64,000 bases of DNA, from assembly GCF_007747445.1 (NCBI RefSeq), contig NZ_CP036425.1, positions 1 through 64,000 of the forward strand. The letters run 5' to 3'. This document shows, piece by piece, positions 50,804 to 61,711 of this stretch. The notes under the pieces were generated by a model. It saw only the letters and a list, made by a program, of their open reading frames with translations. It had not been told where the DNA came from and ran no database searches. The DNA is from Poriferisphaera corsica (GTDB lineage Bacteria; Planctomycetota; Phycisphaerae; Phycisphaerales; Phycisphaeraceae). Position numbers and translations under genes: made by a program. Every line of letters starts with the position of its first letter. Position 1 is the stretch's first letter.

Positions 50804-53062
50804 TTAATTTAACGTGATCTCAAATACACGCTGCTCATTATCAAAGAAATCAACAATGCAGCGTAATTTCCCATCAATCCCCTTAAAAAATCCAGGCGCA
50901 TAGTTATACATCTCTTTGATAGGCCGAGTATTTAGGCTCCCAAGACTAGCAATATAGTACCGATCATCAACATCGATTATTCCGTCAATAAACCGATGCA
51001 TCATGTTCTGCTGATGAGTGATACGATTAACACCATCTATAATACTGAACTTAACCGATGAAACACGTAACTCTGGAATTGCACTCGAATCTCGTGGTTT
51101 CATGCTGTACTCAAACAAATCTTCATCCGTGCAATAGGCAACAAAAATTGTCTGATCATGCTTAAATACATATGGCACATACGCATTATAACTCCTCCCA
51201 TCAATGTCACGTAACAAAGATTCGTAAACAATCTGACGATCTTCATGAACCCAGTCACTCACCGACTTGCCACCATTATTCGCAGTAACCGACCTGATAA
51301 CATTGTAATAATTCTCCTTGTTATCTGTGCCATAGACCTGCTTTTTAACCCCTTCCATCACGACCATGATCTTGTCATTGCCATCCGCATTCGCGTTTGG
51401 CTCAACCATCACGACCGACGCCATGCCATCTCGACTTAATTTTCCATTACCCGCAGGCTCCCGCGCCACAATAATTCGCGGTGACGATAAAGTAGATATC
51501 ATTCCATTGTTATACGTAGCATTCTTCATCGCAATCCACTGATGCCCAAGATATGACGGATCCGTGGTCTCATAGTCATAATAAATCTGTAACTCACCAT
51601 TAGAACGTCGAAACAAATATGGCGCACCAACAAAGCTGTATTTTGTCTGACCATCCGCAGTGAGATACGTACCACCTACTTCAACGACATGCAACCCCCC
51701 AGTACTAGGTATTGTTGTGTTATTAGGTAAAACACTATTTGTTGCGTTATGAATTTCATTAATACTAATGACATGCTTATTGGGGTTCACCGTGTTGTTG
51801 TGCTTCTTCATGCCATAAGAAACAAACATCTTATCGACCAACCCGCCATTGCCATTTTTTACACTCCCAGCCCAAATCATCGGGTCATGAATCGCTCCCA
51901 AATTAGTCGCCAAAAGATCCCTCATTCGCTGCCATGTCACACCATTATCTGTGCTTCGAAACAAATGAATCGAACTTTTGCCATCACCCAAAGGCTTCAC
52001 CACATACTCACCGTTCTCCAAAACGACCTCTTCATGTGGCCCCGGACGAACACCCCACAAACAACCATCAAATTCCGCGACAGATCGAATCGGGCCCGGG
52101 TTACTTGCCTTATGAACCGCAACAGCGGATCCATATCTTTTCATCAGTAACGCCGATTCTGGAAGTGCTGAATTACAAATCCGAACCTCATCAATCTTCC
52201 CGTCAGTCCGGTACTGCTCAACGCCGCTATACGTGCCATTACCAATACGCCAATAATAAGAATCGCCTCCCCCCGAACCGAGTATTTTCTTATTACTGCT
52301 GCTGTTGTAATTTGCCGTCCATAATCCTGGCTGATTATTCGATATATTATTGGCCTTGATATATAGTCTGAGCGTCTGACCATCACCAGTCACCGCGATG
52401 TCATACCAGAACGATGTCGCATTCTGTGACGGCGGCGTGATATGACCAGCTGGCGTTTGAACACTATGACTAATACCGTTTTCGTCCTTGACATACGCCA
52501 AAACGCTGCCATCCATCATATGCGCAACAAAGAAACTTGCTGGACCACTTGAACTGCCTGATCCCCCGATTTCAACATCATCACGGGATACTAAGACTCG
52601 GTGATCTGCCAAAGCCGCCGTATTTGGCTTATAGCTAACCTCAACCGTAAATTCCTTAAACTCAGCCTTCTCAACATCTGTATGTATCGGATGGTTTGGA
52701 AAATGCGTCGTCGTTACCTGAGCGTTGGTCTGTAGCACATGTGAATCACTATTGATTTCCAGATAGGTTAAATTGCTTTCTTGAGTCTGGTAAACCGTAA
52801 GAAATCTACCCCCAGCATCATTCGCTGTGGTTCGATTAGGAATCACAGAAGTTGCGTACAGCAAATTCCCATTGCCCGAAAAATCATAACCCGACCATGT
52901 ATTACTGTATTCAGTCGAGTCTTCAAACCGCCAGTACGCAATCATCGAATTCGGGTGCCTGGAATTATCAACGACATAATCATCCGCCACGATTACCCCA
53001 GACGATAAACCACTTGCAAATATCGCGAGTAATAAGAAATAAAGTTTTTTTATCGATCTCAT
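50804..53062 (-). CDS. Secreted LamG plus Asp-box (sialidase-like) protein, paralog 1
   Basis: A 752-residue exported protein with signal peptide (LYFLLLAIFASGLSSG). The first ~300 residues are a LamG/concanavalin A-like jellyroll (AYWRFEDSTEYS; KIDEVRICNSAL). The rest looks like a beta-propeller with an Asp-box (RSTDNGVTWQRM), as in sialidases and other BNR-repeat proteins. Shared features with the three genes at 57112, 59534 and 62185: LWGVRPGPHEEV, SRDGMASVVMVEPN, YNAYVPYVF and YCTDEDLFEYS. Catalytic residues of sialidases (FRIP, Arg triad) are not recognisable, so enzymatic activity is uncertain. Probably a glycan-binding or glycan-cleaving surface protein. It lies alone on the minus strand with its own terminator. 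Confidence 0.8.
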   Translation of the reverse strand: MRSIKKLYFLLLAIFASGLSSGVIVADDYVVDNSRHPNSMIAYWRFEDSTEYSNTWSGYDFSGNGNLLYATSVIPNRTTANDAGGRFLTVYQTQESNLTYLEINSDSHVLQTNAQVTTTHFPNHPIHTDVEKAEFKEFTVEVSYKPNTAALADHRVLVSRDDVEIGGSGSSSGPASFFVAHMMDGSVLAYVKDENGISHSVQTPAGHITPPSQNATSFWYDIAVTGDGQTLRLYIKANNISNNQPGLWTANYNSSSNKKILGSGGGDSYYWRIGNGTYSGVEQYRTDGKIDEVRICNSALPESALLMKRYGSAVAVHKASNPGPIRSVAEFDGCLWGVRPGPHEEVVLENGEYVVKPLGDGKSSIHLFRSTDNGVTWQRMRDLLATNLGAIHDPMIWAGSVKNGNGGLVDKMFVSYGMKKHNNTVNPNKHVISINEIHNATNSVLPNNTTIPSTGGLHVVEVGGTYLTADGQTKYSFVGAPYLFRRSNGELQIYYDYETTDPSYLGHQWIAMKNATYNNGMISTLSSPRIIVAREPAGNGKLSRDGMASVVMVEPNANADGNDKIMVVMEGVKKQVYGTDNKENYYNVIRSVTANNGGKSVSDWVHEDRQIVYESLLRDIDGRSYNAYVPYVFKHDQTIFVAYCTDEDLFEYSMKPRDSSAIPELRVSSVKFSIIDGVNRITHQQNMMHRFIDGIIDVDDRYYIASLGSLNTRPIKEMYNYAPGFFKGIDGKLRCIVDFFDNEQRVFEITLN

Positions 53063-53691: not shown

Positions 53692-55824
53692 TTAGTTCGA
53701 CGCCTTCACCAGCGGCCCGAGCGCCTTCGTCTTGATCTCTTCCACGATGTTTGCAACAAACTCATCCGTAGGCACCGCACCAAGATCACCTTCGCTGCGA
53801 TGACGAACACTCACCGTGCCCGCTTCCTTATCCTTCCTGCCCACAACCAGCATGTAGCAAACGCGATCTTCCTGCGCGACCTTGATCTTACCATTCAAGC
53901 GATCATTACCCTTATCGATCGTCACACGCACACCTTCAGCAAACAGTTTGTCCTTCACCTCTTCAGCATAATCAACAAACTTATCACTGATCGGCAGCAC
54001 CCTCACCTGTTCAGGATTCAACCACAGCGGGAACGAACCATTAAAGTGTTCAATCAACACGCCAACAAAACGTTCCATCGAACCAAACGGCGCCCTGTGG
54101 ATCATGATCGGCGTATGTTCCGCGTTATCGCTGCCCACATAAGACAATTCAAAACGTTGCGGTAACTGATAATCAACCTGAACCGTACCGAGTTGCCACT
54201 CGCGCCCGATCACATCCTTTACGACAAAGTCGATCTTCGGACCATAAAACGCCGCTTCGCCAGGCTCCATGCTGAACGGCACGCCTAGGCTTTCCGCAGC
54301 CTTGATACATGCAGATTCCGCGCGATCCCAGTCCTCAGGATTACCAACATACTTCGTGCCGTCCGGATCACGTAAACTGACGCGAACTCTAAAGTCTTTC
54401 AAACCAAGAGTTTCAAAGATTACTTTCACCAAATCCAAGCAACCCTGTACTTCCTCATCCAATTGTTCAGGCATCACAAACAAATGAGCATCATCCTGAG
54501 TGAAACCGCGCACGCGGGTCATGCCGTTCAACTCACCCGACTGTTCCCAGCGGTAAACCGTGCCAAACTCCGCCAAGCGGATCGGCAGATCACGGTATGA
54601 ACGCTTCTCAGATGCGTAAATCTGGATGTGATGCGGGCAGTTCATCGGTTTGAGCATGTATCCGTCAACGTCGCCATCTTCAAGCATATTCGCGAGTTGT
54701 GAACATGAGCAGCCCTCATCTGCGAGCGATTTAATCTGCTCGCGGCTAATGATCGGCGGGAACTGCGAATCCTGGTAATACGGGAAGTGACCCGAGGTTC
54801 TATATAGATCCAGTTTCCCGATATGCGGCGTGAACACTTGGAAGTAGCCTTGTTTGGTTAGATGCTCGCCGATGAATTTTTGGAGTTCATCACGGATGAT
54901 TCCGCCCTTAGGTTTCCATAACACAAGGCCTTGGCCGACTTTATCGTCGATCGCAAACAAACCGAGCTTTTGGCCGATCACACGGTGATCGCGAGCTTTG
55001 GCTTCTTCGAGTTTTCCGAGATAGGTTTCGAGATCTTTTTCGGAGAAGAAAGCGGTGCCGTAAACGCGTTGGAAGCGATCGGAATTCACGTCGCCGTGCC
55101 AGTTGGAACTGGCAATCGACATCACCTTAGAAGCGCCGATCAATGATGTATTGGGGACGTGCGGCCCTTGGCAAAGGTCTTCCCAGTAACCTTCGGAAGT
55201 ATTTGCAGAATCATCAGTTGCGCATGCAGTATCGAGTGATGGATCGCCGGTGACGTACCATGAGAGTGATTGGGCGCCGCCTTCGATGGCGCGCTCGGCG
55301 TTGTCGATTTTGTATTTGTTGTTTTCGGCTTTGAGTTTGTCCATGCCTTCGGCGATGGGGAGATCGTAACGCTTGAATGGACGGTTACTTGCGATGATTT
55401 TGGCCATCTCGGCTTCGATCTTGGCGAAGTCGTCTGAGGAGATGGGTGTGTCGAGTTTGATGTCGTAGTAGAAGCCGGTCTCGAGAGGCGGTCCGTATGC
55501 TAACTCTGTGTCTGGCCAGAGGTTAGCGATGGCTTCGGCCATGACGTGTGCGGTCGAGTGGCGGAGGAGGTAGAGAGCGTCGTCCTGGTGAGCGGTGTCG
55601 CGGAACTTGGAGTTACCTTTTTTGTCCTGGCGAGGCGCGGTGATGATGGAAATATCGCAATCACTTGTGATAGGGGAAGTTACGTCGACGAGTGTGCCAT
55701 TGACGCGGGCGCCAATGGCGGCTTTGGCGAGGCCAGCACCGATCGAGGCGGCGACATCGTAGGGTGTTGAGTTCTGAGGGAGCTCAACGGAGTTGCCGTC
55801 GGGTAGTTTGACATTGATGTTCAT
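53692..55824 (-). CDS. thrS: Threonyl-tRNA synthetase
   Basis: ThrS charges tRNA-Thr and edits serine mischarging. The 710-residue protein has the full layout: an N-terminal TGS domain (MNINVKLPDGNSVEL), the editing domain with the HSTAHVMAEAI zinc-type motif, the class II catalytic core (MLKPMNCPHHIQIYASE with the zinc Cys; ELNGMTRVRGFTQDDAHLF; APFGSMERFVGVLIEH) and the anticodon-binding domain at the C-terminus. It is longer than E. coli ThrS (642) mainly in the editing/core region. GGAG lies 9 bases before ATG 55824. About 555 bases upstream, on the same strand, a threonine-rich leader and terminator may regulate it. The top strand is C-rich in the C-terminal half and G-rich in the N-terminal half, so the composition switch lies inside the gene. 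Confidence 0.97.
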   Translation of the reverse strand: MNINVKLPDGNSVELPQNSTPYDVAASIGAGLAKAAIGARVNGTLVDVTSPITSDCDISIITAPRQDKKGNSKFRDTAHQDDALYLLRHSTAHVMAEAIANLWPDTELAYGPPLETGFYYDIKLDTPISSDDFAKIEAEMAKIIASNRPFKRYDLPIAEGMDKLKAENNKYKIDNAERAIEGGAQSLSWYVTGDPSLDTACATDDSANTSEGYWEDLCQGPHVPNTSLIGASKVMSIASSNWHGDVNSDRFQRVYGTAFFSEKDLETYLGKLEEAKARDHRVIGQKLGLFAIDDKVGQGLVLWKPKGGIIRDELQKFIGEHLTKQGYFQVFTPHIGKLDLYRTSGHFPYYQDSQFPPIISREQIKSLADEGCSCSQLANMLEDGDVDGYMLKPMNCPHHIQIYASEKRSYRDLPIRLAEFGTVYRWEQSGELNGMTRVRGFTQDDAHLFVMPEQLDEEVQGCLDLVKVIFETLGLKDFRVRVSLRDPDGTKYVGNPEDWDRAESACIKAAESLGVPFSMEPGEAAFYGPKIDFVVKDVIGREWQLGTVQVDYQLPQRFELSYVGSDNAEHTPIMIHRAPFGSMERFVGVLIEHFNGSFPLWLNPEQVRVLPISDKFVDYAEEVKDKLFAEGVRVTIDKGNDRLNGKIKVAQEDRVCYMLVVGRKDKEAGTVSVRHRSEGDLGAVPTDEFVANIVEEIKTKALGPLVKASN

Positions 55825-56378
55825 GATTGCGGTCTCCGAATCTTTTAGGTTGCGCTGTATGTGCTGTGCTGGGCATGAGTTGTGTGAGGTGGTGCGGTTT
55901 GGGAAGTTGGTTTTGCCGATGTGGCGTTGTCCAACTTCCGAGGGGGATGGGGCGCACGGTTTGTATGGTAAACGGGCGCTGGAGTACGCACAAAAGCGCG
56001 TTTTGGGCCTGTTTTTCAGGCTAAGTGTTTTATTGTCAGTATTTTACTGCTGCAAGACCGTTTTTGCTTAAAAACGGCTAAAAACAACGGGTTTTGATCT
56101 TAAACAGGCTAGGTTTGGTGAGTTTTGGTGCGTTTTAGGTAAGAAATCTGAGTATTGAAATTTCTGTGTGCGGTTTGATGCGCGCTTTGCGAAAATTTCG
56201 TGCGATCCCCCCCCCGGAAATTGGGTCATGAAATAATGGGAGTAAGCCGTTTAGGTTGAGCGGGTTGCGTGATTGGGGGCGATCAGTTGCGGCGCGGCGT
56301 GCGGTTTGGGAAGCACGGTGTTTGGGGTTAATTTTCAAGGATTTCTGGGAGTTTTTGAGTTTGGAATGAGGGGCAATT
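55825..56378 (-). other. Long untranslated stretch between attenuator and thrS
   Basis: No supported gene. It contains a perfect 8-bp hairpin (56058-56077, stem CCGTTTTT) and a smaller stem GCCTG/CAGGC (56007-56021), plus a run of nine C at 56207-56215. No convincing promoter on the minus strand is seen, so it may simply be the thrS leader. Confidence 0.4.
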
Positions 56379-56411
56379 AAAAAAGCCTCGCGATTGGTAG
56401 GCGAGGCTTTT
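56379..56411 (-). terminator. Attenuator-like intrinsic terminator
   Basis: On the minus strand, AAAAGCCTCGC (56411-56401) pairs with GCGAGGCTTTT (56391-56381) and six T end at 56379. It begins 26 bases after the stop codon of the threonine-rich leader frame. The 5' arm can alternatively pair with CGAGGC inside the leader's codons 24-26 (top-strand 56452-56457), giving a possible antiterminator. Confidence 0.8.
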
Positions 56412-56437
56412 GATGATTGCTGTGATTTTGGAATCAA

Positions 56438-56527
56438 TCAGTGAGTCACCTGCCTCGTGCCGCGCGTGGTTGCGGTCGTGGTCGTTGTGGTGGTTTCCGC
56501 GGTGGTTGTGGTGACACGCTTGGTCAT
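56438..56527 (-). CDS. Threonine-rich leader peptide (putative thrS attenuator)
   Basis: A 29-codon frame, too short for usual gene calls. ATG 56527 is preceded by AGGA at seven bases. The peptide has Thr at positions 2, 6-9, 12-18, 20-21, 24 and 28: 16 of 29 residues, including seven in a row. A strong intrinsic terminator follows the stop codon by 26 bases. This is the architecture of amino-acid leader peptides such as thrL of E. coli. The next gene on the strand is thrS, threonyl-tRNA synthetase. A scarcity of charged tRNA-Thr would stall the ribosome in codons 12-21 and leave CGAGGC free to pair with the terminator. This is inference; the alternative is a chance low-complexity frame next to an unrelated terminator. 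Confidence 0.7.
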   Translation of the reverse strand: MTKRVTTTTAETTTTTTTATTRGTRQVTH

Positions 56528-56555
56528 GCTCGGTTCCTGAATGATTATCTATATC

Positions 56556-56584
56556 AAGGTATCGGTTTGTGGGGGTGGGTGCAA
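56556..56584 (-). promoter_or_regulatory. Weak promoter candidate for the leader
   Basis: On the minus strand TTGCAC (56584-56579) and TACCTT (56561-56556) are 17 bases apart, ending about 29 bases before the leader ATG. Both hexamers are imperfect. An AT-rich TATAGATAAT at 56553-56544 is an alternative -10 but would leave little room for the ribosome-binding site. Confidence 0.3.
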
Positions 56585-57111: not shown

Positions 57112-59478
57112 ATGACGAATAGAGCATTTTGTTATTTATGTACCCTTATATCGTTCTGGTACATTACAGGATTAGCGTATAGTAGTATTCCGGCAACATA
57201 TGAGAATGAAAAATATGGGGTGCAGGCGTATTGGGCGTTTGATGACGATATTGATGAATACAATTCAAGTGGTAATTATTATAAGGATCACTCGGGGCAT
57301 AATCGAAATTTGATAACAGCGGTCATGCCTACTTTATCAAGCCCGAATTTCCAATCTCATCCACTCATAAACAGTCATTATCCCAAAGTACCAAATACTG
57401 GCCGGGTTAATGACGCGTATGTAAAGGTGAGTAAAGATCGTCGACCACTTATTTATATTTTTCCGGCAAATGAGCCTTTATGGCGAAGTTATACCATCGA
57501 GGGCAGCTTTCGACTTCGGGCGGATATAGATCAGATTACTGAGTTTAATAGATTTTTGTTTTCATTTGACCGTTCTGATTTTTTACCAAACCCAAATGAT
57601 ATTGATATATTTGTGAAGGATGATGGGCATCTAAAATTCTTAAGCGATCATCCGTACGTTAGTCTTACGATGACAAACCATCAGATTCAACACGACAAGT
57701 GGTACCATTTTGCAGTAGTTAGTGACGGTAAGACGCTGAGTTTAATACTTGGTTACAAGGACACTAATGGGGAATTTGTAACCGATGAGATCGTGCACAC
57801 CTATACGAATACTGCCGAACCATCTATCGTGGTAAGCGAAGCCCAAATAAGTGTAGGTGGTGTAGGAATCGATAGGGGATGGGGCGATTCAAATGCACTC
57901 GGTAATGGCGATATGGATGAGGTTCGTTTATCAAATATTGCAATTGCGCCTGCTGGCTTGTTGATGAATCAGAATATGAACAATGCGAGTTCACAGGTGG
58001 CTGTCGAATTTCCTATGAATAGTAGCAATGATGATTCTATTGAGGAGATAGCGGAGCCTGGCCCGATCAGGAGTATTACAAAATGGGGAGATTATCTGTT
58101 AGGTGTGCGGGTCGGACCAAATGAGAATATCGCTTCATTTTTAGGTAAAAATGTCCACGTTACATCACCGTATTTTTCCGGTGCTACTGAGGTGCAAAAT
58201 CTGGTCATTCATGTTTTTATGAGTCGTGATCAGGGTAGTACATGGGAGCGAATCAAAAATATTGATGTTCAAGGGGGGCAACCGTCAGGTCAAACTTACG
58301 CTAATCTGATTGTGCCAACAGATATCACGATCAGTGCGCAGGATGGTTTTGTCGTTGTGGCGTATCGCGCGGAAAAATATGATCTAAAAGAGTCGAATAA
58401 TTGGAAAAATGAGATCAAAGATTTCGACAAGATGGGTTTGCATGTTGTCAATCAGATACATGATCGCGTACCTTTAGAAGGCTATTATGGGGTGCGTGAC
58501 TCAAATTATGGCAACAAGATTATTGCTAGTAGTTTTACGGTTACACATAGAATTGAAACGACTCTGACGAGTAGGATTTATGAGCCAATCGAGTTGGTGC
58601 ATGTTGATTCGAAAGATATTTCTACTCAGGCTTATAATTCGAGTTTAGAAACATCATATTTTGTGGGGGCCCCGCATATTTATCGCGCTTCTGATAGTTC
58701 TTGTATCGTTTTTTACGACAATGAAGTCGCAGATAATGACCCGACCAATGGTCACAATCAGTTGATTGCTTATAGGCGAATAACGTTTGGTAGTAACCAT
58801 CACATAGCAGTTTTATCAAATGAGTATCAGTTAACAAAGACAGATAATCGGATTCTTAAACGGGATGGAATGGCGACGGTAGCGCGTGTTAAAGCAAAGT
58901 CGGGTGGCCGCGATAAGGTGTTTGTTGTATTTGAGGGTATTGAGGATAAGACGGGTGCCAATCGTAATGTTGTGTGGGGGTTAATCGGTGAATTGCCGCA
59001 GCATAATGCGGGGAGCTCGCATGCGTTTCAGAATGACGAGCCGTTTGAGGTCTATAAATCGCCTACGAAGCCGAATGGTCAGAAATATAATGCGTATGCG
59101 CCTTATATCGTGCGTTTGTATGATGGCGATGAGATTTTGAATGATTATCCCAATTATGCGATCGCATTTTGTACGGATGAGGATGTGTATTTGATCAATG
59201 ATAGGGCTCCGGCTGATTCACCGAGTGAGGATGTCATGAAGCGAAGATCAACGATCAAGGTTGTTTTTGGTAAGTATGCAGAAACGCCGTTATATCAACG
59301 TATTTTTAGTTCGCCCAAGACAGTATGGCCTGGGTATATGGTGGATGTAAGAGATCCGAATGAATTTCATAGCTATATGCCGGGTCTTGTGAGGCTGTCA
59401 GAAAATAGTCTTTACATCATTGTTGACTACTTTAATAACCATCAAGCAGGCTTCGGTTTCAGGCGTGCGGCTAATTAA
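57112..59478 (+). CDS. Secreted LamG plus Asp-box (sialidase-like) protein, paralog 2
   Basis: A 788-residue exported protein with a signal peptide (FWYITGLAYSSIPA region). N-terminal jellyroll (AYWAFDDDIDEYN; MDEVRLSNIAI) followed by a propeller-like region with Asp-box MSRDQGSTWERI. Shared blocks with paralog 1: LLGVRVGPNENI, KRDGMATVARVKAKS, YNAYAPYIV and FCTDEDVYLIND. It is the longest paralog. AAGGCGAG precedes ATG 57112. It is followed after 55 bases by paralog 3 on the same strand with no terminator, so the two are probably co-transcribed. Whether it is an enzyme is unclear, as sialidase catalytic residues are not obvious. Confidence 0.8.
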   Translation: MTNRAFCYLCTLISFWYITGLAYSSIPATYENEKYGVQAYWAFDDDIDEYNSSGNYYKDHSGHNRNLITAVMPTLSSPNFQSHPLINSHYPKVPNTGRVNDAYVKVSKDRRPLIYIFPANEPLWRSYTIEGSFRLRADIDQITEFNRFLFSFDRSDFLPNPNDIDIFVKDDGHLKFLSDHPYVSLTMTNHQIQHDKWYHFAVVSDGKTLSLILGYKDTNGEFVTDEIVHTYTNTAEPSIVVSEAQISVGGVGIDRGWGDSNALGNGDMDEVRLSNIAIAPAGLLMNQNMNNASSQVAVEFPMNSSNDDSIEEIAEPGPIRSITKWGDYLLGVRVGPNENIASFLGKNVHVTSPYFSGATEVQNLVIHVFMSRDQGSTWERIKNIDVQGGQPSGQTYANLIVPTDITISAQDGFVVVAYRAEKYDLKESNNWKNEIKDFDKMGLHVVNQIHDRVPLEGYYGVRDSNYGNKIIASSFTVTHRIETTLTSRIYEPIELVHVDSKDISTQAYNSSLETSYFVGAPHIYRASDSSCIVFYDNEVADNDPTNGHNQLIAYRRITFGSNHHIAVLSNEYQLTKTDNRILKRDGMATVARVKAKSGGRDKVFVVFEGIEDKTGANRNVVWGLIGELPQHNAGSSHAFQNDEPFEVYKSPTKPNGQKYNAYAPYIVRLYDGDEILNDYPNYAIAFCTDEDVYLINDRAPADSPSEDVMKRRSTIKVVFGKYAETPLYQRIFSSPKTVWPGYMVDVRDPNEFHSYMPGLVRLSENSLYIIVDYFNNHQAGFGFRRAAN

Positions 59479-59533: not shown

Positions 59534-61711
59534 ATGAGATCATACAGTATGATCAGTTGTATCGTTGTGTTATTGATGAGTTGGTGTGGGGTTGTGCATG
59601 GGGAGTCGTGGCAGCGAGGTGTGAAGGCATATTGGCGGTTTGAGAAGAATCTTGCGGGGGATGGGATTCATCAGTTTGATGATAGCATGAAGAATGGAAC
59701 TGGTTTGTGGGGGTCGGCGTGGCCGGGCGAGAGTACGGATGTTCCGTTTAGTGGGGTGGTGTCTAACAATGGATATGCGACAGCGCATTCGTTATTTGTA
59801 GATGATGATCTTCATTTGATGACGAACACAGAAGCGCATATTAATGGTGGTCGGTTGGTGAAGGTTGATATTGAGACTCTCAGTTTTCGTCAGTTTACGG
59901 TAGAGGCGAGTTACAAGCCGGACTTTACGAATTATTCGAATAGTGGCTGGCGATCGGTGATTGCGTGTCAGGTTTGGAATAAGTATGAGGCGGGTCATGC
60001 GGTACGTGACGGGTCGTTTGTGAATGAAGTATTCCGAATATTGTGTAAGAGTGATGGTAGTATTGAGTTGCGAGTGGTTGGGCCAGACGATACTTATGTG
60101 ATCTCGACTCCAGCAGGTTACATGCCGACGAATGCTGGGAGTGAGCAGTGGTACAACATGGTGGCGGTCGGTGATGGTAAGACGGTCAAGTTTGTGATCA
60201 ATGGAGAGTTGATCGGTACGGCTATGATTGATCCGGCCCATAAGTTGAATTTCAGGATAGCGAATGATATTGCCAACAATGATACGATTGCTCGCTGGGC
60301 TGTTGGTTCTTCGCGGCATTGGAATAGTTCGAGTCAGGGTTTATTTGCACGGGGAAAGATTGATGAGGTTCGGCTGTCTAATATTGCATTAGATGAGTCG
60401 GCGTGGTTGCAGAACGACATGCCGACAATCGAGAATATGGTGTGGGAACAGGTTTATGGTCATGAGAAGGAGGACGATGGTGATCCTGCGACGGGGGCGG
60501 ATGATAATCCCGGGCCGTTCCGTCACATTACATCATGGGCGGGGCAGCTGTGGGGTATGACGGTAGAGCAACATGATGAAGATGGCAACGGGGTGGATGA
60601 GAATTATCTGGTTTTGTATTGGAGTGTCGATGAGGGGGATACGTGGACTCAACTGCAAAAAAGAGGCGAGACGGAAACACATGAATATAAAGATCCGATG
60701 TTCTTCTACGGGGATGTGAAAGATAGCTCGGGTAATATTGAGCAGCAGCTGCTTATTGCTTATCTCAAGAGGTATTCGGGGGCAAGTACAGGGCCTTGGT
60801 TTATGCATGTTGAAGAATATCTAAAAATACCGGAGAACGCGGCTTCAACTTCGAGTGCAGTGATAGGGTATTCGGATTCGCCGTATTTGCATGCATTGTC
60901 GGATGGGACGTTACAGTTGTATTACGTTTTTGAACCGAATTGGTCGCCGCATAATAATCGTACAAGTGGACGACAGGATCGGTATGTTGTGATGCGTCAT
61001 CTTACGTTCGATTCGGTAGCAGGGGTGGCGTTGGGTGATACAAATCATCAATCGGTTTGGGTGAGTGATTTGAGTAATTACATGACGAATGGGCGTCAGG
61101 ATGGGATGCCGAGCGTTGTGACGTTGAAGGAGGGGAGTTCGGGTAATGATGAGCTGTTAGTTGTGATGGATGGTGTTGATGAGTTGGAGAGTACGACGGA
61201 GCAGCCGCACAATATTGTGCATGGTGTGCGAGTGAGTAATGGCGGGAAGCTACAGGCGGATTGGGACAGTGGAGTGAGAAGTGTTTTATATGAGAGTACG
61301 AAGCATGGATATCACGGGCGAAAGTTTAATGCGTATTCGCCGTATGCGGTAATGCCGATGAGTAATCTTTATAACAATAGCTTGATGGATGGTGATGGGG
61401 AAGACCGTGTTTGGGTAGCGTTCTCGACGGATGAGGATTTTGAAGAGCATAGTGCGGACAGCCCGTTTACGCCTGAGGTTTTCAGACGATCATCGGTGAA
61501 GCTGATTGAGGTGAATACGGAGAATGGGGGGCTAAGTGTGCAGTCGGGCGGGCCAGCGGTTCTGTATACAGGGGATGAGAGTGATGATGTTGGCGATGTT
61601 CATCATTACGGGATTGGTCTACTCCGCATTGCTGATAATGAGGTCTATGGTGTTTTGGATTTCTTTAATGGAGATGTGAAGGGATTCAAATTGAGAGTGA
61701 ATGATGAATAG
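59534..61711 (+). CDS. Secreted LamG plus Asp-box (sialidase-like) protein, paralog 3
   Basis: A 725-residue exported protein with signal peptide (CIVVLLMSWCGVVHG). N-terminal LamG-like domain (AYWRFEKNLAGDG; KIDEVRLSNIALDES) and C-terminal propeller-like region with Asp-box WSVDEGDTWTQL. Shared blocks: LWGMTVEQHDED, GRQDGMPSVVTLKEGSSG, FNAYSPYAVMP and FSTDEDFEEHS. It is more G-rich than paralog 2. AAGGAATATAAAG is upstream of ATG 59534. A good terminator follows at 61744. Its divergence from paralogs 2 and 4 suggests old duplications rather than a recent tandem copy. Confidence 0.8.
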   Translation: MRSYSMISCIVVLLMSWCGVVHGESWQRGVKAYWRFEKNLAGDGIHQFDDSMKNGTGLWGSAWPGESTDVPFSGVVSNNGYATAHSLFVDDDLHLMTNTEAHINGGRLVKVDIETLSFRQFTVEASYKPDFTNYSNSGWRSVIACQVWNKYEAGHAVRDGSFVNEVFRILCKSDGSIELRVVGPDDTYVISTPAGYMPTNAGSEQWYNMVAVGDGKTVKFVINGELIGTAMIDPAHKLNFRIANDIANNDTIARWAVGSSRHWNSSSQGLFARGKIDEVRLSNIALDESAWLQNDMPTIENMVWEQVYGHEKEDDGDPATGADDNPGPFRHITSWAGQLWGMTVEQHDEDGNGVDENYLVLYWSVDEGDTWTQLQKRGETETHEYKDPMFFYGDVKDSSGNIEQQLLIAYLKRYSGASTGPWFMHVEEYLKIPENAASTSSAVIGYSDSPYLHALSDGTLQLYYVFEPNWSPHNNRTSGRQDRYVVMRHLTFDSVAGVALGDTNHQSVWVSDLSNYMTNGRQDGMPSVVTLKEGSSGNDELLVVMDGVDELESTTEQPHNIVHGVRVSNGGKLQADWDSGVRSVLYESTKHGYHGRKFNAYSPYAVMPMSNLYNNSLMDGDGEDRVWVAFSTDEDFEEHSADSPFTPEVFRRSSVKLIEVNTENGGLSVQSGGPAVLYTGDESDDVGDVHHYGIGLLRIADNEVYGVLDFFNGDVKGFKLRVNDE

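Follow-up and report, generated by a model that had tools for sequence, protein, structure and literature searches.

The Thr-rich frame upstream of thrS in Poriferisphaera corsica is best read as the leader of a ribosome-mediated transcription attenuator that would control the gene for threonyl-tRNA synthetase, a reading to which we assign a probability of roughly 0.9. Such an attenuator had been proposed in a first-pass annotation of the window, i.e. the whole 64,000-nucleotide stretch of contig NZ_CP036425.1 that was analysed, and the proposal was supported by a conserved leader and terminator and by a covarying antiterminator pairing. Comparative sequence evidence strongly supports the attenuator as a real and conserved element.

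The thrS locus and its leader

The gene that follows the leader frame on the same strand is thrS, an identity confirmed by a domain search of its product that returned TGS, tRNA_SAD, the class II core and an anticodon-binding domain (Table 1). The gene upstream of thrS is divergent and starts at 57112, and the intervening 1.3 kb should therefore hold the thrS promoter. Three similar-looking proteins of 725–788 aa with Laminin_G_3 matches, probably secreted, flank the thrS region.

The leader frame was found as annotated, with 29 codons of which 16 encode Thr, and so was its AGGA ribosome-binding site. ACC, ACG and ACA are mixed within the Thr run, which is no simple triplet repeat. Among the runs of at least five Thr codons examined elsewhere in the genome and here, only that of the thrS leader combined a short frame with a terminator. 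The strong intrinsic terminator claimed 26 nt past the leader stop codon, in thrS orientation, was likewise present and consists of AAAAGCCTCGC, a 9-nt loop and GCGAGGCTTTT. A scan for consensus promoters and terminators listed neither the leader terminator nor the leader promoter; the terminator was missed because the scan was limited to loops of 8 nt.

The candidate promoter boxes, TTGCAC and TACCTT, are spaced by 17 nt and form a block that is kept in P. corsica and P. heterotrophicis amid unconserved sequence. In 37 of 45 members of the group defined below, a TAnnnT motif falls within the 30 nt that precede the leader start, as compared to 4 of 45 farther upstream. It is mostly separated from that start by 10–17 nt, and a TTGAC is often seen some 20 nt upstream of it. 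The leader start of many relatives is only 6–10 nt from the -10 box, which leaves no space for a ribosome-binding site, so that these leaders may be leaderless or nearly so. At loci such as L132, L133 and L018 a -10-like TATACT precedes the leader ATG by only about 6–9 nt, and the leader mRNAs there are probably leaderless.

Table 1. Features of the thrS region of P. corsica (window coordinates) and riboswitch loci of relatives (coordinates within each locus).
Feature	Position	Strand	Basis or remark
thrS, threonyl-tRNA synthetase, regulated gene	53692..55824	-	Pfam TGS, tRNA_SAD, tRNA-synt_2b, HGTP_anticodon
Untranslated spacer, terminator to thrS, 554 nt	55825..56378	-	547 nt in P. heterotrophicis
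Terminator U tract	56379..56384	-	sequence
Intrinsic terminator stem-loop, 11 bp, 9-nt loop	56381..56411	-	sequence; family-wide spacing
Antiterminator segment CGAGGC in last codons of leader	56452..56457	-	pairs with GCCTCG, 56402-56407
Main Thr run, codons 12-21, proposed stall site with uncharged Thr-tRNA	56465..56494	-	sequence
Leader peptide frame, 29 aa, 16 Thr, MTKRVTTTTAETTTTTTTATTRGTRQVTH	56438..56527	-	translation
Ribosome-binding site AGGA of leader	56535..56538	-	read from sequence
Candidate -10 box TACCTT	56556..56561	-	same conserved block, 17 nt from TTGCAC
Candidate -35 box TTGCAC of leader promoter	56579..56584	-	conserved block; putative, unmapped
Nine-G run on the transcribed strand, in the spacer	56207..56215	-	surroundings C- and A-rich
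Laminin_G_3 protein	50804-53062	-	domain match
Laminin_G_3 protein	57112-59478	+	domain match
Laminin_G_3 protein	59534-61711	+	domain match
SAM riboswitch RF00162, locus L271			
SAM riboswitch RF00162, locus L275	1021-1135		
SAM riboswitch RF00162, locus L278	1128-1244		

Conservation of the leader and terminator

Genes for ThrRS were located in the family, order and class, and the upstream regions of 131 Phycisphaerae genomes were searched in thrS orientation for frames within 400 nt in which 6 or more of 12 codons encode Thr. This resulted in 46 genomes with a Thr-rich frame, P. corsica included, spread over eight families. A later detector that covered 420 nt (750 nt for Poriferisphaera) and called for a start close to the Thr run also returned 46. 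The corresponding counts for controls were a mean of 0.45 for dinucleotide shuffles, 0 for the antisense strand and 16 for Arg, the next amino acid. Examples are MITTRETTTTTTTTTTTTTTVRGQ in P. heterotrophicis, MLVTTTTTTTTTTTTRPPAIG in genome G002 and MNTTTTTTTQTTTTPSRQAVGA in genome G084. Thr codons are mixed across the leaders (ACC 210, ACG 160, ACT 41, ACA 21), which argues against a triplet microsatellite. Only the Thr run is conserved family-wide while the C-termini differ. Most of the leader-bearing genomes share no homologous upstream gene, and the leader is accordingly linked to thrS rather than to a neighbor.

Conservation in relatives, on which the first-pass annotation had staked its reading, was observed, as leader and terminator recur together in many Phycisphaerae genera. 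The terminator begins 24–48 nt past the leader stop (median 29) in 43 of the 46. With stricter terminator criteria, 42 of the 46 leader regions were positive against about 0.01 expected per region from shuffles, and just 6 of 84 leader-less thrS upstream regions were. In eight genomes the terminator is separated from the start of the thrS match by only 32–60 nt, too short a stretch to accommodate a second promoter, and thrS would have to be read through the terminator there.

A leader was not detectable in 85 of the 131 sampled genomes, meaning that this control is dispensable. No such leader was found in 23 planctomycete thrS regions outside the class or in 64 more distant thrS upstream regions, mostly from Verrucomicrobia and archaea, and thrC and leuS of the relatives had no comparable leaders. 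Within the class the leader is scattered on the ThrS tree, at the cost of at least 13 changes; one origin followed by many losses and repeated gain both fit this pattern. In three members of the family, an intrinsic terminator follows a SAM riboswitch (RF00162) ahead of a gene resembling thrC; no such riboswitch turned up at the best thrC loci in P. corsica or P. heterotrophicis.

Antiterminator pairing

The proposed complementarity between CGAGGC at the end of the leader and GCCTCG in the 5' arm of the terminator was borne out, and its counterpart in each genome was evaluated by pairing the region from the end of the Thr run up to the terminator with the terminator 5' arm and loop. The mean energy was -19.2 kcal/mol for leader tails with their own terminators and -16.0 kcal/mol when terminators were exchanged between genomes, with none of 20000 permutations as low as the own-pair value; shuffled leaders gave -14.1 kcal/mol. 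The difference held among 31 non-redundant members (-18.7 own, -15.9 exchanged, 0 of 20000 permutations). In P. corsica, the pairing of CGAGGC was better than that of shuffled leaders (fraction 0.01).

The terminator arms vary by lineage (GCCTCGC, GACGGCCGCCC, ACGACCGTCC, GAGCCCGGCC and GACGCACGGC) and the leader segment covaries with them. This segment spans the leader end and the stop codon, its own end falling between -10 and +24 nt from the stop, and a ribosome terminating at the leader stop would mask it. CGAGGC is common to P. corsica and P. heterotrophicis, yet the two species translate it in different frames (aCG AGG Cag and CGA GGC); what is conserved is therefore the RNA and not the peptide.

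Predicted folding around a ribosome and proposed mechanism

Folding with a ribosome footprint was used to predict, for 43 members, how far the terminator 5' arm is sequestered while the 3' arm has yet to be transcribed. The mean probability was 0.77 for a ribosome stalled in the Thr run, 0.32 for one at the stop and 0.74 for ribosome-free RNA, and the difference between the stalled and stop states exceeded 0.3 in 35 of the 43. Values for P. corsica were 0.62, 0.06 and 0.57, respectively, in line with the annotated claim that a stalled ribosome frees the antiterminator segment and that one at the stop masks it. At equilibrium, the terminator was favoured in the full-length P. corsica RNA in every ribosome state (0.95), and the switch would consequently have to be kinetic; in several relatives the antiterminator wins at equilibrium as well. 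A protector (1:2) hairpin was not evident, and the untranslated leader favours the antiterminator in most members, which suggests that the leader has to be translated for termination to occur.

According to the proposed mechanism, RNA polymerase would start just upstream of the leader. With ample charged Thr-tRNA the leading ribosome would pass the Thr codons, reach the stop and cover the antiterminator segment, whereupon the terminator would form and transcription would stop before thrS. With uncharged Thr-tRNA the ribosome would stall in the Thr run; the segment at the leader end, left free, would then pair with the terminator 5' arm ahead of synthesis of the 3' arm, and polymerase would continue into thrS. 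The parts, their conservation, their spacing and their covarying pairing were observed here; from them we infer where transcription starts, that the ribosome stalls, that transcription terminates and that thrS responds to threonine. We give even odds to the more specific proposition that this is a near-leaderless Thr-run attenuator of thrS, evolved separately and found class-wide, that has no protector hairpin and requires translation for termination.

Alternative explanations

The long spacer in Poriferisphaera raises the question of whether the element still acts on thrS. The distance of about 555 bases to thrS, named as a weakness in the first-pass annotation, is real; it is however peculiar to this genus, at 547–556 nt in both species and 32–193 nt in other members. 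A promoter within the spacer could drive thrS, with the attenuator of both species a relic whose leader RNA ends without consequence. The genus-specific spacer is consistent with this, as are an antiterminator core in P. corsica of only 6 bp, the thermodynamic preference for the terminator, and an identity of 54–60% between the two species in parts of a spacer that is otherwise poorly conserved next to the leader block. We nevertheless regard a relic as unlikely, since no other part of the thrS upstream region is as well conserved as the leader block, an island of 68–74% identity, and since complementary CGAGGC and GCCTCG are retained in both species though frame and peptide differ. The same spacing, more than 550 nt, together with a promoter-like block, a start and a terminator of its own, could be taken to mean that the frame encodes a small Thr-rich protein as a gene in its own right, unrelated to thrS. 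This is highly improbable given that the sequence beyond the Thr run differs between leaders and that the Poriferisphaera segment is kept in different frames, that the frame precedes thrS in eight families with differing upstream genes, that its end pairs specifically with the terminator, and that some terminators end 32–60 nt before thrS.

Control of thrS is achieved by other means elsewhere, as the E. coli gene is autoregulated and Firmicutes thrS genes are under T-boxes. It is conceivable on these grounds that ThrRS binding to the leader RNA or a T-box controls the gene here and that the Thr frame is incidental, but the chance of this appears very slim. The features conserved are Thr codons and an alternative pairing, and the 18 thrS loci searched contained no Rfam family at gathering score, a tRNA gene excepted. 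Direct ThrRS binding was set aside as no matching structure was seen, and T-boxes as no Rfam match was obtained in the window region or at the 18 loci. An attenuator acting on thrS remains the preferred reading.

Implications and comparison with known systems

Attenuation of this kind requires the leading ribosome to keep up with RNA polymerase, and the element therefore lends itself naturally as a reporter of how transcription and translation are coupled in planctomycetes. If the reading is true, the Phycisphaerae attenuator implies that coupling is tight. Spatial separation of transcription and translation was put forward for another member of the phylum, Gemmata obscuriglobus (Gottshall 2014, as cited in PMC6212462), a claim that has been disputed (PMC6554331). 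Cultures exist of both P. corsica and P. heterotrophicis, and public RNA-seq data for the latter are available under PRJNA768630 and PRJNA694614 (PMC10945688).

The Rfam model of the threonine leader (Thr_leader, RF00506) matched neither the window region (E up to 5) nor the 18 thrS loci at gathering score. A permissive Rfam search gave chance-level matches only, among them a sub-threshold match to Phe_leader RF01859 (21.8 bits against 55, E 2.7). The leader of thrABC in Enterobacteria (thrL) resembles the present element in its Thr-rich peptide, in its terminator after the stop and in stalling at Thr codons. It differs in that it controls biosynthesis with mixed Thr and Ile codons, whereas the P. 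corsica element precedes thrS, has long Thr-only runs, lacks both an Rfam match and an evident 1:2 protector hairpin, and belongs to a different phylum. The tRNA synthetase genes pheST of E. coli are under leader-peptide control. The pheMST leader is alike in attenuating an aminoacyl-tRNA synthetase gene, with Phe in place of Thr.

The literature searched, from which subscription papers were mostly absent, yielded no description of thrS attenuation by a leader peptide in planctomycetes. To that extent the first-pass remark that such control in a planctomycete was not known to be described holds, but a thrL leader is annotated upstream of thrS in Streptomyces lividans (PMC8079986). That leader is also short, also lies before thrS on a leaderless transcript and is also read as an attenuator; it has only two Thr codons (MKRVRPFLETTPGFVPAR) and no clear terminator (PMC8079986), as compared to 6–16 Thr and a strong terminator in Phycisphaerae. 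A published survey reported no conserved structures for threonine operons (PMC1262725). Leader attenuators of leuS and trpS in Streptomyces are further cases of classical attenuation of synthetase genes outside Proteobacteria, for other amino acids and in another phylum than here (PMC1262725).

Leader-peptide control of synthetases was therefore already known, and its application to thrS is, as far as found, new for Planctomycetota. Control of thrS in Phycisphaerae would differ from both the E. coli and the Firmicutes types, and the sequence evidence for it is far stronger than in the Streptomyces thrS case. The element would thereby extend leader-peptide attenuation to a further phylum.
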